The position numbers and the translations under genes are program-made. The notes below the pieces were generated by a model. It was given only the letters and a program-made list of their open reading frames with translations. It did no database searches and was not told where the DNA came from. A stretch of 64,000 bases of DNA, taken from contig PUDQ02000003.1 in assembly GCA_002964805.2 (NCBI GenBank), forward strand, positions 3,782,001 to 3,846,000, read 5' to 3'. Position 1 is the stretch's first letter. Every line of letters starts with the position of its first letter. Shown one piece after another: positions 50,406 through 56,784 of the stretch. This stretch comes from Trametes villosa (taxonomy: Eukaryota > Basidiomycota > Agaricomycetes > Polyporales > Polyporaceae).

Positions 50406-53400
50406 TTAGTAGCTCGAGCCGTTGACCTGCGTCGACCATCATCAGCGCACTGTCAAATGAAGGCAAAGGGGATGAGGGGGAACGCACCTTGTCGCGCAGC
50501 TGCGAGATGAACTGCTGGTAGCTCGGCAGCACGTCCGCGCGGTCCTGGATGAGGCAGCTGAGGGCCCAGAGCCGGAGCGGCGGCTCCCCGTCCTCCTTCA
50601 CAACGTACAGGTGCGGGTAGTACACGCCCCGCCGCATCTCGCGCGTCTTCTGGATCACCGCATTTACCCGCTGCGAGAACGGGTTGTCGAGCTCCGGAAG
50701 CGTTGTCTGCGCCGCGGAGTCATGTCAGGAGGGAGAACGAGCGCATATGAGAGGGGAGAGCGTACCTTGCCGCCGCGGAGGACTTCGTAGTTGGGCAGGT
50801 TGAAGACGTCCGTGATGAGCTGCGGCACCGCGTCCCTGCCAACCCAGAGGAAGATCGTCTGCCCGTCCTCGATGAGGAACAGACCGTGACGCTCGAGCCG
50901 TTCTGACGTGAGCGGGAGCGGCTGGGGCATGATGGTGCCGTGCTCGCCCACCGTACCGCACTAGGGAGACATCGCACACAGTATCAATAAGACGCATTCA
51001 CGAAGTGGGCGCATCCTAAGACTCACCTCTGGTGGCATGTTGTGCAGGGAGTAGAACGTGGGGTAGATGTACGGGATAAGCAGCTGCGACGGCAGCGTCG
51101 TGAGCAGGCACTGCGCATACGCCCGCAGGTCGGGCGGGATCTGCGCGCTCTGCCTGATGCCAACCTATACAAGAATACCATCAGTTGAACTGTCCTCCCA
51201 CACCACTCGCTAGCCGTGATGTACGCACGTTCTTCAGCAGACCGAGCAGGAGCACAGGCAGCATCTTCAAGTTCTCCGAGACCGCGAGCTGCGCGCTCGC
51301 GCCGGCGCCGGCGGCCGTCATGCTCGCCTTGTACGCGGAGAGGATCTCGACCATCTTGTTGAACACCGCGTCGCGCGCGTCCTCGAGCTTGTGCGTGAGC
51401 GAGCGCTCGACGGCCTTGTTCGCGAGCAGCGTCGCGATCGCGACCTGGTCCGCGGACGCGAAGATGTCCGAGAGGTTGTTCGTCGTCGGTAGCGCAGTCG
51501 TGATCACACGGATGCGGCGCTCCCCTGCAGCAGTCGTAAGTATACGATTCGTTAGGGGCGGGGGTGGGGGTGAGGGGAAGGACGTACCATAGCAAGTGGT
51601 GTGGAGGACAGCGGTCTGCAGCACCACGAAGGGCGCGGTGATGTTGTCCTCGATCTGGATCTCGATGGCGTACGATAGATCCTGCGGGACCGACGGCATG
51701 GCCAGCAGATCCGTCGACCGCACGAAGAAGTTTCCGTGGAACGCGGACATGCGCAGGTCTACGCGCAAACGTCAGCGCCTTACCGAAGAACTTGGGTTGT
51801 GGGAGACACTCACTCTTGGAGGCACGGACACGCATAACGGCCTCGAGCATGATGGGCATCGCCAACACCTCACCGAACTCATGCGCGAACTTAATCGCGT
51901 CTTCTGTGCGGGAGGCGTTGAAGGCGGGGTAAAAGTACGATTGCCCAGCCGTGTAGTGGGGGAGGCAAGCTACATAGCTACTGGTTAGACTGGGATTGAT
52001 AACGTTTTCAGGGAGTGCTCACCAAGCGTGGCGACGTCCTGGTAGCCAGAGCTAAAGAGGAACATGTCGACCGAGACCTGCGCCCGAGAGCACTCGATGG
52101 CAAAGGTCTTGTAGAAGGGTGAAGCTGCTTGAAGCAGCGCAGATTCCTTGAGACGCGGATATCAGTCTCGACAAGAGCCTTGCAGGTATGTTTACGCACC
52201 TTCGAGGTTCCCAGAACCTTCGGGTCCTCCCTGTTCTTGAGCGCACCCGCGCCAACAGACGGCAGACTGGCGGAGAGGACTTGGATCTTTCCACCAATGT
52301 GCGCCTACCAATGCGGTCAGTATATGCGCCCATCTCTTGGCTTCAGGAACTAAGACGCACCATCAGCTTGAACGCAGCCTGCAGCGCGGGGCCAAGGGCG
52401 CTGCCAATGGTGTGGTTGTCCTGGAACATGTCGTTCAACCTGCCAAGCAGGCTCTCGATCGCGGGGCGGCTCTCCGTCAAGTTAACGAGCAGGTCCGTCG
52501 GCTTCGGCAAGAACACATCATCGATGTCCGACACGACCAACATACTCGAGTCCGCAGTGCCCGCCTGCGCCAATCCCATGTATTAGCACTCGTGAGAAAC
52601 CACACGCGCTTCCCGAACCCGCGCATACATACCGGGAGCGAGAAGAAGTGCAGGGACGTGTCGAACGCGATGAACGCGACCTTCGTCCGGTTGTCCTCGT
52701 TCGGGATGCGGTCGAGGTTCTCGAGGATCGTGCGCGTTGCGGTCGCGACCATGCCCGACTGAATCGCGTTGTGGCTCACGTCGATGAGGAAGACGTACAC
52801 CGCCGGCTGCGGCGGCCGGACCATGTACTCCGTGGGCGCGACAAACTCGACGACGCCGTGGTTGAGCTCCGCGCGTGCCCAGCGGTCGCCCGGCTGGTTC
52901 CGGACCTGGTCCCAGTCGAAGAGCTGCGGGACCTCGTTCGACATCGAGCACATGCAGCATCGCCAACTGCATACAGTCAAGTTTCTGCGTATGCAAGAGG
53001 GGAGGGTGAGACCTACCGGTTGCCGCCGTCGATAAACTGAACGTAGGGGTTGATGTACGTCCGGCATCTCCTGCAACGCGCGATAACGGTATCCGTGACA
53101 AGGGGAACGGGCTCATCTCCCTCCTTCACTGTGCGGTAGGGCGTGATGACGAGACCCAAGGGAAGCTTGGACTTCTGGAGAAGGGAGTGGGAGGTCGGGA
53201 TGGCGTTAACAGTACAGCGCTGGTACGAAGAGTCAGCGTTTGCGAGAGGCGAGTTCGATAGGCACGAGTTGGGCGGGAGAACAATGTCCGGAGGTGGGCG
53301 ATGCAGTTCAAGAGGATCCGGAGGAGCAGCCAGCAAGTTGGTGGTGAATAGCCGAAGACCCTTCTGTCCGACGTTCATCTGCGAGAACTGGTCGGTCAAC

Positions 53401-53987
53401 GCGTTCACGCCAGCAGGCTGCTGCTGCTGGTACGCCGGGGCCTGCCCAAACCCAGGCGCGTTGATGTACTCCGGCTCTTGCGGCGCCTGACCATAGTAGG
53501 GAGCTTGTCCGGGCTGGGCACCTATCTGCTGCTGCGCGAACTGGCCATCTCCCGCAAGACCCGGCGTGAAGAGCTGGGGAGGTTGCTGTCCGGGTTGGGC
53601 GGGAACGCCGCCGTATGCAGGACCAGGTGGAGGGGCTATCTGGTCCGCGCCGTAGTACGCTTGAGTCTGTCCGGCCGCATATTGGCGTCGTTTTGTATGG
53701 TGAGCCTGAGATGGTGGAGGGGATGCGCTCGGCGCGGGGTTGATGCCTTCGGGGTCAGGGAAGGGGGGCTCCCACTGCGTCCTACCCGTCGCAGTCTCTG
53801 AAGGACGAGCCGGGCGACGAGTTGGCGACAGTGCCTGCGCAGATGCACGAGAGACTCACCGATGAAGAGGTAACGTTGGGCGTTTTGGTCCCTGTTCTGC
53901 CGTCAATCACCATCGCATCTGCACGCTGGGGTCGACTGACCATTCGGCCGCCCAACCTGGGGGCAGCTGCTGAGCAGGGGAGGCCAT
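50406..53987 (-). CDS. SEC24: COPII coat protein Sec24 with N-terminal WW domain
   Basis: Cargo-binding subunit of the COPII coat at ER exit sites. ATG at 53987. Exons 53987-53941, 53891-53860 and one starting at 53797 join in phase and give a full WW domain at about residues 8-37: [20 protein letters not shown] then [12 protein letters not shown] Gln/Pro/Tyr-rich linker follows with no break into the Sec24 body: the zinc finger ([16 protein letters not shown], then [17 protein letters not shown]), the trunk ([19 protein letters not shown]), beta-barrel and helical parts ([24 protein letters not shown] region) and a gelsolin-like segment ([20 protein letters not shown]). It ends SQLRDK/VNGSSY, TAA at 50406. 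About ten introns; later borders were not all phased. Confidence 0.92.
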
Positions 53988-54428: not shown

Positions 54429-56524
54429 ATGGAGGTCGAGTTATTCAAAATCCACTCTCGAGCGCCCCACCCGTCCTCGGAGCCAACCACGCCCGTGGTC
54501 GAAGCTACTGACGAGCTCGGGAAGCACATAGATAATGTCGAGACTAGTCCAGCAGGAGATAGCTCTCAGCCCAGCCGTGCGCCGTCGACGACGTTCACGG
54601 CTACTACGCCAGCTATGAAGCTCAAAGCGCGGATTCAATTTGTCACGCTCTGCTGGAGTCTGTTCCTTGCCGGCTGGAACGATGGCACGACTGGCCCTCT
54701 ATTACCCCGCATACAGACCGTCTATCACGTAGGCACTTCATATAGTTTCCATGGATGATGCTAATCCCTGTGTGAACGGCAGGTTGGTTTCGCGGTCGTC
54801 TCTTTGATATTCGTCTTCAACTGTATTGTGCGCCTTCACCCATCTATATGGTATTCGAGTCGCCCCTGACCCCTCTCTCCAGGGCTTCGTTGCGGGAGCT
54901 GCGTCGAACGTATACCTGACTGACCGCCTCGGATTCGGCACTGTAGGCCCGCTATTTTGCTTCATGTGGCGCGCTGCTCACTGTGCCTCTCAGGTTATGG
55001 TTATCGGTGCGTTGCGGCACGGAGTTCGCAGCGTCCCCAAGAGATGAACGACTATTTCACGGTAGGTTCGATGGCACAGGTCATCGGGTACTCCCTCGAA
55101 GCCCCTGCGCCTCCTTTCCCCGTCTTCGTACTCGGGTACGCTATCAACGGCTTTGGGCTGTCTCTTCAGGTAGGAGTGTTCACTACAATGTCTACATTCG
55201 CCTCCTAACATTGATACTGAAAATCTCACCCAGGATGCGGGCGCGAATGGTTTTGTCGCCTCGCTGAAAGATAACGCTGCGACGAAGATGGGCATACTCC
55301 ATGCTATCTACGGTACACCCCCACGCTCCTACACAACCTTAAGGCCTCGTGCTAACCCAGAGTACGGGAATTGGCCGTAGGCGTCGGAGCGCTCTCCTCA
55401 CCGCTCGTCGCGACGCAGTTCTCGCAGCTCAACCACTGGTCGTTCCACTACCTCGTATCGCTCGGGATCGCGCTCTCCAATGTTGTCGTCCTCATCGCCG
55501 TGTTCCGTTTCAAGGACCAGGACAGTCAGTCTTCTTTCCGGCACTTTTCCTGCCCACTCGCGCTTACCTCCGTCATCCTCAGCGTGCCTCGCCGAGATCG
55601 GGCAGCTGCCAACGCACGACGATGACAGCAACACGAACAGCAAGTACTCGCAGATCTTCGGTCTGCGGGCGCTCCACTTGTTGGCGTTCTTCATCCTTAT
55701 CTACGTCGGTGTGGAGGTCACGCTCGGAGGTATGCACCCCCGATTCTCTTTCAGCATTGTATTGTTCACTTACGGACACCGCTTCAGGCTGGATTGTCAC
55801 GTACGTCATTCAGCTTCGTGGCGGAGGACCATCGTCTGGATACATCTCATCCGGCTTCTTCGGTGGTGAGTACTTAACACTACAGTGGCTGCGGGCACGC
55901 TGACATCGATCTGCATAGGGTTGACATTGGGTCGCGTCGGCCTGCTCTGGGTAAATCAAAAGGTACGCCTCGTTGTGTCTTACCGCTGCGTTGTATCGTC
56001 TCACACAATACCTCCAGGTCGGCGAGCGCCGCGTCATCTTCGTCTACGCCATCCTCGCGATCGCGTACGTCCCGCCTTCCCAGTTCTCCATGTCCCCATT
56101 CTCCCGCTTATCCTTGCGTTCTCTATAGTTTCGAACTTGTGATCTGGCTGGTGCCCTCGCTCATCGGCGGAGGCGTCGCGGTCTCCTTCGTCGGCGTCCT
56201 GCTGGGGCCGATCTACCCGATCGTCATGAACCACGCCGCGCGCGTGCTCCCGCCGTGGCTGCTCACGGGCTGCATTGGGTGGATCGCGGGCTTCGGGCAG
56301 GCGGGCTCCGCGCTGCTGCCGTTCATCACTGGCGCGCTCGCGTCGCGCGTGGGCATCAAGGCTCTCCAGCCGTTGTGAGTTCACCAAACCCACCCCCCTC
56401 ACGGTTCACGTATAAGAAGACCACGTACTGATTCAAGTTTATTTGTCGCAGCTTGGTGGCGATGATGGGCTTCATGATTCTGCTCTGGGCACTCGTACCA
56501 GGTAATCCGCGCCGGATGGACTAA
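54429..56524 (+). CDS. MFS transporter, fucose permease/BSC6-like
   Basis: Twelve-helix membrane transporter. ATG at 54429, TAA at 56522-56524, many short exons. After a 70-residue polar N-terminus come FVTLCWSLFLAGWNDGTTGP and LLPRIQTVYHVGFAVVSLIF (TM1-2), then GAASNVYLTDRLGFG. PPFPVFVLGYAINGFGLSLQ and DAGANGFVASL are typical of the fucose-permease-like group, as are HAIYGVGALSSPLVATQFS and HWSFHYLVSLGIALSNVVVL. The second half has VGVEVTLGGWIVTYVIQLRG, SGYISSGFFGGLTLGRV and GPIYPIVMNHAARVLPPWLL, ending ALVPGNPRRMD. This group contains the S. cerevisiae BSC6-type and bacterial FucP-like proteins; the substrate is unknown. No frame break seen in the main copy. Confidence 0.88.
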
Positions 56525-56784
56525 AGGGTCTCGCCTGATGTCATTGCTTCATCTCGACAACGCGACGTGTACGTTGTATAATTCTCTAGCACTGCTTTCC
56601 GTTGCGTCTGCGTTTGAATTTGAGTTCCTGCTTCCAGTTGCCGTTCTCTTCTCTTCTCCGATCATTGTGAGCACTGCGGCTGCTTTGCTCGTGTGTCACT
56701 GCGGTCTTCGCTCGAGCTGCGTTGTCTAATTGACGACGTAGAAGTGGTCAGGTGCGTGCATATACTGGGCGGATGGTCGGGCAT
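56525..56784. other. intergenic, 3' of MFS gene
   Basis: Probable 3' UTR of the MFS gene, without other features. Confidence 0.35.

Follow-up and report, generated by a model that had tools for sequence, protein, structure and literature searches.

The Sec24 Gene of Trametes villosa and Its WW Exons

The window, a stretch of 64,000 nucleotides of Trametes villosa DNA, carries on its minus strand a Sec24 gene that runs from an ATG at 53987 to a stop codon at 50406. In our splice model, 14 exons are joined by 13 GT-AG introns of 49–68 bases each and encode a protein of 940 amino acids. The features are listed below.

50406..53987, minus strand: whole gene, encoding the WW domain, zf-Sec23_Sec24, trunk, beta-sandwich, helical, and gelsolin domains; the Trametes polyzona SEC24 (P0001) is 96% identical over 100%
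53941..53987, minus strand: exon 1, start codon and first part of the WW domain (15 residues plus two bases of W16)
53892..53940, minus strand: intron 1, 49 bases, GTCAGT...CAG, phase 2
53860..53891, minus strand: exon 2, middle of the WW domain (remainder of W16 plus 10 residues)
53798..53859, minus strand: intron 2, 62 bases, GTGAGT...CAG, phase 1
53017..53797, minus strand: exon 3, end of the WW domain (12 residues), disordered tether, and start of the Sec24 body up to the zinc finger

An earlier note on this DNA had proposed three small exons, joined in fitting phases by GT-AG introns of 49 and 62 bases, which fuse a WW domain in frame to the N-terminus of Sec24. Coordinates, borders, and lengths agreed with our model, and the fusion itself was borne out by the complete 940-residue reading frame, in which a Pfam WW match (E 1.6e-6) is followed by five Sec24 domains. 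An in-frame TAG starts 30 bases ahead of the start codon M1 at 53987, and no other Met occurs before residue 167. When 181 two-intron models were tried for the segment of the WW exons, 15 kept the Sec24 frame. The splice that joins the WW exons is supported at the level of sequence, and not merely allowed, because only this one of the 15 in-frame models reproduces residues 1–44 of P0001 letter for letter. A chance or wrong splice was rejected on the grounds of the in-frame model, the Pfam match, and the identity to P0001 over these residues.

It might also be that the WW exons are transcribed separately from the Sec24 body and that the fusion is an artefact of the gene model. The gene is known here from DNA sequence alone, and the public models P0066, P0086, P0091, and P0120 start downstream of or inside the WW domain, as judged by eye. 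Against this stand the annotated WW-Sec24s of many species, the one open frame, and the in-frame stop upstream, so that we regard such an artefact as extremely improbable; a single mRNA would join the WW exons and the Sec24 body. A divergent neighbour gene lies upstream at about 54432–56525 of the window (plus strand) and starts about 445 bases from the Sec24 start; by eye, its protein seems to be membrane-transporter-like (MFS-like).

Sec24 is a strongly conserved and essential, cargo-selecting coat subunit, which belongs to the inner coat of COPII on the ER membrane and has been studied mostly in yeast and animals. All five Sec24 domains of the T. villosa protein, i.e., zinc finger, trunk, beta-sandwich, helical, and gelsolin, score over the Pfam cut-off. 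The protein is Sec24 and not Sec23, as many of the top matches are named SEC24 and all 14 matched PDB sequences are Sec24; by eye, a Sec23-like gene is located elsewhere in the genome (contig C34). A second Sec24-type gene was noticed on contig C140 (320000–325500), where the visible N-terminal frame contains HSAGTPYKGLRAAIDPNQIPSP and, by eye, no WW domain; such an N-terminus presumably marks the Lst1/Sfb3 or Sec24C/D-like type. The best explanation is that the WW-Sec24 gene is the main Sec24 of the fungus, with T. polyzona as its closest named relative. The body is common to yeast Sec24 (PDB 1m2v, 4bzi), where residues 133–932 of P0001 align to 97–924 of the yeast chain, and to human SEC24A/B, where residues 208–933 align to SEC24A constructs. 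For both, the best aligned stretch stops short of residues 1–132 of P0001, and there is no WW match in that stretch.

Identity and Predicted Fold of the WW Domain

The WW domain comprises the 31 residues 8–38. Within the whole protein it matches PF00397 at 28.5 bits (E 1.6e-6), above the cut-off of 26.9 bits, and the isolated N-terminal piece of 44 residues reaches 35.1 bits (E 1.4e-8); likewise, all of 29 diverse WW pieces matched the Pfam WW model at E values up to 0.1. W12 and W35 are located 23 positions apart and P38 is the closing Pro. The two Trp residues had been described as 22 apart, which holds for the number of residues between them but not for their distance, and the domain contains a third Trp, W16. 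AlphaFold predicts a three-stranded antiparallel sheet (strands 12–17, 22–27, and 33–34), with pLDDT values of 82–89 in the WW block and below 50 for residues 42–153. In a PDB comparison the predicted fold matches the WW domains of Pin1, Nedd4, and FE65, several of them at 1.0–1.5 Å.

The residues L8, P9, W12, and P38 are invariant across the 29 diverse pieces. The mean majority identity (46 rows from the best 120 of 2428 homologues) amounts to 0.82 for the WW domain, 0.45 for the linker behind it, and 0.89 for the body. Residue counts were made on the 155 WW domains among the matches listed that show the exact 31-residue pattern, aligned ungapped on Pin1, whereby variants with indels, such as P0005, P0040, P0059, and P0061, were left out. 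Among these 155, W16 is Trp in 153, Tyr in one, and Thr in Wallemia, and it is kept also in WW domains that have lost W35. The Wallemia ichthyophaga Sec24 (P0182) shows at residues 5–35 a canonical-looking WW domain with a YYVN core and without W16, unlike the other 154; it may represent the ancestral state, a reversion, or a module swap.

A genome-wide WW search missed the Sec24 WW domain, presumably because introns split it. The eight other WW matches in the genome gave only fragments with our own WW-Sec24 profile, and these in two of the eight.

Distribution of WW-Sec24 Across Fungi

In order to date the fusion, the earlier note had suggested a search of basidiomycete Sec24 proteins for WW domains, and this search found them in nearly all of the basidiomycete matches listed. 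The first list consisted of the best 120 of 2428 homologues, whose named members belong to the Agaricomycetes, a class membership that we assume for these species. PF00397 is annotated on about 80 of these 120 and the UniRef name “WW domain-containing protein” is given to some two dozen, so the WW-Sec24 architecture is already visible in public database annotation. We built our own profile from the 31-residue WW segments of this list, ran it with filters off, and called a WW domain there at 15 bits or more. By this measure 115 of the best 120 homologues have the WW domain; the five misses are P0082 and the four models named above, and by eye P0082, too, starts downstream of or inside the WW domain.

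For the second list the query was lengthened and candidates of about 990 amino acids or more were taken, which gave the best 120 of 1559; as two rows repeat the first list, 118 proteins are new. Among its 50 named basidiomycetes, 47 contain a whole or partial WW domain at 13 bits or more. The carriers include Rhizoctonia, Serendipita, Naganishia (Tremellomycetes), Wallemia, Ustilago and kin, Exobasidium, Tilletia, Malassezia, Puccinia, and many Microbotryomycetes, whereby three of the 47 domains are partial or damaged (P0123, P0124, and P0165) and the one from Wallemia scores 13 bits. The named basidiomycetes without a WW domain, P0144, P0147, and P0156, begin downstream by eye, and the WW-less basidiomycete orthologues look like truncated gene models. 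Twelve rows without a species name were excluded from the counts: seven contain a whole or partial WW domain at 10 bits or more (P0131, P0158, P0160, P0162, P0174, P0222, and P0229), and the remaining five (P0225, P0227, P0231, P0235, and P0238) lack one, their sequences apparently beginning within a linker like that of Malassezia.

Outside the Basidiomycota, our profile (filters off) found a WW domain in none of the 56 named non-basidiomycetes of the second list, of which 54 are Mucoromycota, Glomeromycota, and other early-diverging fungi and two are Ascomycota. For a further list the query was the zinc-finger region from a Sec24 of an ascomycete, and the named matches are Ascomycota. PF00397 occurs in none of these 120 ascomycete-type Sec24s (best 120 of 429), and the top score of our profile among them was 2.2 bits. 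These counts, which cover early-diverging fungi and ascomycete-type proteins, are in line with the earlier statement that yeast and animal Sec24 proteins have no WW domain; the statement itself reaches beyond them, to animals and Saccharomycotina yeasts.

A recent or Trametes-only fusion was rejected, as the WW domain occurs across the sampled Basidiomycota, and a WW-Sec24 in Mucoromycota/Glomeromycota or Ascomycota was rejected on the zero counts among the matches listed. Since the WW domain occurs throughout the Basidiomycota sampled and is absent from the other fungi examined, a single addition on the basidiomycete stem is the simplest explanation. By sequence, the domain was probably added once on this stem, just ahead of an older N-terminal basic-Tyr motif.

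The P0005 model (Trametes cinnabarina Sec24) has extra residues in the WW domain at the place of intron 2, which probably are a read-through of that intron; together with the models that miss the WW exons, this suggests that public annotation may undercount the fusion. Some public Sec24 entries are over-long and carry foreign domains (P0121, P0122, P0124, P0230 with an AAA-type, and P0234 with a kinesin-type domain) and are probably merged neighbouring genes.

Ligand-Binding Residues of the WW Domain

In WW domains the groove for the XP unit of a ligand is formed by a Tyr and the second Trp. PPxY readers (group I) recognise the Tyr of their ligand by a His located behind the core strand, and group IV domains, which bind phospho-Ser/Thr-Pro, have an Arg/Ser phosphate loop. 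We take R14, S16, R17, and Y23 of Pin1 to be its phosphate and groove contacts. The predicted WW domain aligns without gaps to that of Pin1/Ess1 (group IV), with residues 7–39 on 6–38 at 1.1–1.3 Å for two Pin1 entries; Pin1 differs in that an isomerase domain takes the place of the Sec24 body. In this register E15, D17, Q18, and L24 occupy the places of R14, S16, R17, and Y23, so that the T. villosa domain has no Arg/Ser loop of the group IV kind. A His at the place of Pin1 H27 occurs in none of the 155 WW domains among the matches listed (T28 in T. villosa), and thus the His of group I is absent as well. Among the same matches, the place of Y23 is Leu, Val, Ile, Ala, Met, or Phe in 154 of 155, the exception being Wallemia, and the Asn after the core is changed to Glu, Asp, or Gln in 153. 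The WW1 domain of Salvador/SAV1, from another protein class, also has a Trp at the W16 position and, unlike WW-Sec24, retains the usual ligand residues (KYYIDHN).

Whether the groove Tyr counts as lost depends on the alignment register. The loss is seen when the sequences are set ungapped on Pin1, whereas gapped alignments to the Itch WW domains pair Y23, and not L24, with the groove Tyr. Place 23 is Tyr in 107 of the 119 Agaricomycete-type WW domains among the matches listed, and judging from these alignments the groove in mushrooms may be intact after a small bulge. This escape fails in Ustilaginomycotina and Pucciniomycotina, because place 23 is not Tyr there, and a register with Y23 in the groove still leaves the PPxY-reading His absent. 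The second Trp, W35, is kept in all 131 Agaricomycete-type (119/119) and Ustilaginomycotina (12/12) domains among the matches listed and replaced in all 22 from Pucciniomycotina, i.e., by Tyr or Phe in all 21 from Microbotryomycetes and by Leu in the one from Puccinia. The Microbotryomycetes proteins (among P0126–P0173) and the Puccinia protein P0168 retain the fold residues and W16 despite the loss of W35.

A classic reader of proline motifs, which would bind PPxY, PPLP, PPR, or similar motifs in Sec31, Sec16, or cargo tails, is suggested by the Pfam score above the cut-off, the fold match to the WW domains of Pin1, Nedd4, and FE65, the conserved W35 in two of the groups, and the aromatic Y23 which the gapped alignments place in the groove. 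The possible targets in the coat were scanned in the T. villosa genome, whereby Sec16 was located by PF12931 and Sec31 by a yeast probe sequence. In this one genome, the single long open frame of each, in which introns may be read through, contains 14% Pro, with four and five PPR motifs in Sec31 and Sec16, respectively, and two PPLP motifs in Sec16. PPxY is not enriched: it occurs once in the long Sec31 frame, against 0.6 in shuffles, and not at all in that of Sec16. A PPxY partner in Sec31 or Sec16 was therefore rejected for these two frames. Given altered residues at several of the usual ligand positions and no excess of PPxY, reading of this motif is possible but not favoured, and with the ungapped loss of the groove Tyr and the replacement of W35 in Pucciniomycotina also speaking against it, we consider a classic proline-motif reader unlikely. 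Of the earlier suggestion of a PPxY- or proline-rich-motif recruiter at ER exit sites, the motif reading is thus weakly supported, and recruitment to ER exit sites is possible by way of another surface.

The Tether and the Proposed Role of the WW Domain

AlphaFold predicts a disordered tether of ~110 residues between the WW domain and the Sec24 body, and in T. villosa a 14-residue basic-Tyr motif lies on it from residue 62. Among the matches listed, the linker from the WW domain to this motif measures 16–34 residues in Agaricomycete-type proteins, 57–89 in Ustilaginomycotina, and 103–167 in Microbotryomycetes; it is 8 in Wallemia and 25 in Naganishia, and in Puccinia P0168 the tether motif was not found. 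Since its length differs by group, a tether fits better than a fixed interface. A basic-basic-x-Tyr sequence is present in the first 120 residues of 94 of the 97 ascomycete-type Sec24s of at least 850 amino acids (best 120 of 429) and, as far as the sequences tell, is likely the counterpart of the T. villosa motif after the WW domain; yeast Sec24 presumably starts with MSHHKKRVY. In Ustilaginomycotina and Malassezia a RPTHPQGQARMSMP-like stretch recurs by eye after the WW domain, e.g., in residues 40–90 of P0128; the Agaricomycete N-termini compared did not show it, and it is possibly a second tether motif.

We tentatively propose, at a little less than an even chance, that the WW domain is a fixed part of Sec24 since the basidiomycete ancestor and serves as a flexible docking arm with a surface other than a PPxY pocket. 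In the predicted model the domain would fold alone and hang on the disordered tether before the Sec24 body. With Sec24 on the ER membrane, the arm could catch a partner at ER exit sites, and candidates for this partner would be the outer coat, a Sec16-type scaffold, or a basidiomycete-specific factor. For docking it would use a surface with the almost invariant W16 and the sheet instead of the classic PPxY pocket. What has been tested is the anatomy, the conservation, and the distribution; the fold is predicted, and docking, partner, and surface are what we infer. A folded knob at the end of a tether whose length is free to vary points to a docking arm more than to a fixed interface, and we favour this reading because the in-frame model is complete, because the domain is present in 115/120 and 47/50 of the matches listed, and because WW identity far exceeds that of the linker (0.82 versus 0.45) while W16 is almost always kept among them. 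Against it, W16 might only stabilise the fold, the gapped register would leave Y23 as a groove Tyr in most Agaricomycete-type domains, the W35 kept in 131/131 could mean ordinary ligand binding in those groups, and the Wallemia domain looks canonical.

The atypical ligand residues and the long flexible tether would also permit a regulator within the molecule, whereby the WW domain folds back on Sec24/Sec23 and controls the assembly of the coat or its cargo sites. Docking on a folded domain has a precedent in USP8, whose atypical WW-like domain is modelled as a plug of the protein's own catalytic cleft (PMC8576004). The sequence of this domain differs from that of WW-Sec24, since the Pfam USP8-WW model matched only one of the 29 pieces (E 0.084), and with a linker whose length varies about ten-fold between groups we judge such a fold-back quite unlikely.

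The domain might instead be a relic, i.e., an old fusion that is kept mainly as the carrier of the start codon and slowly loses its binding groove. With M1 as the sole Met before residue 167, a loss of exon 1 would remove the KRRQY motif, and the second Trp is lost in Pucciniomycotina. The invariance of L8, P9, W12, and P38 in the 29 pieces and the far better conservation of the WW domain than of the linker argue against a relic, and 35 of 114 first-list proteins (best 120 of 2428) have a Met between the WW start and the motif and keep the WW domain nevertheless. We consider a relic improbable. A further-reaching form of the docking-arm proposal, in which the WW domain gained on the basidiomycete stem gave up its proline-motif pocket and built a W16 face, so that the COPII coat of a whole phylum would assemble or select cargo with a partner absent from yeast and animals, appears somewhat unlikely.

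Significance of the WW-Sec24 Fusion

No description of WW-Sec24 was found among the open-access matches listed, as covered by their titles and the starts of their abstracts. The main text of a paper on COPII evolution contains neither “WW domain” nor “basidiomyc” (PMC4419792). In the secretion machinery, the fusion appears to be an addition of long standing that has drawn little notice, and it explains why some basidiomycete Sec24s are named only “WW domain-containing protein”. As the domain keeps its fold with several of the usual ligand residues changed, it may show a second binding mode of WW domains. Provided that the domain arose by a single addition and has been retained in the Basidiomycota sampled, WW-Sec24 would mark a real difference in ER export in mushrooms, smuts, and rusts.
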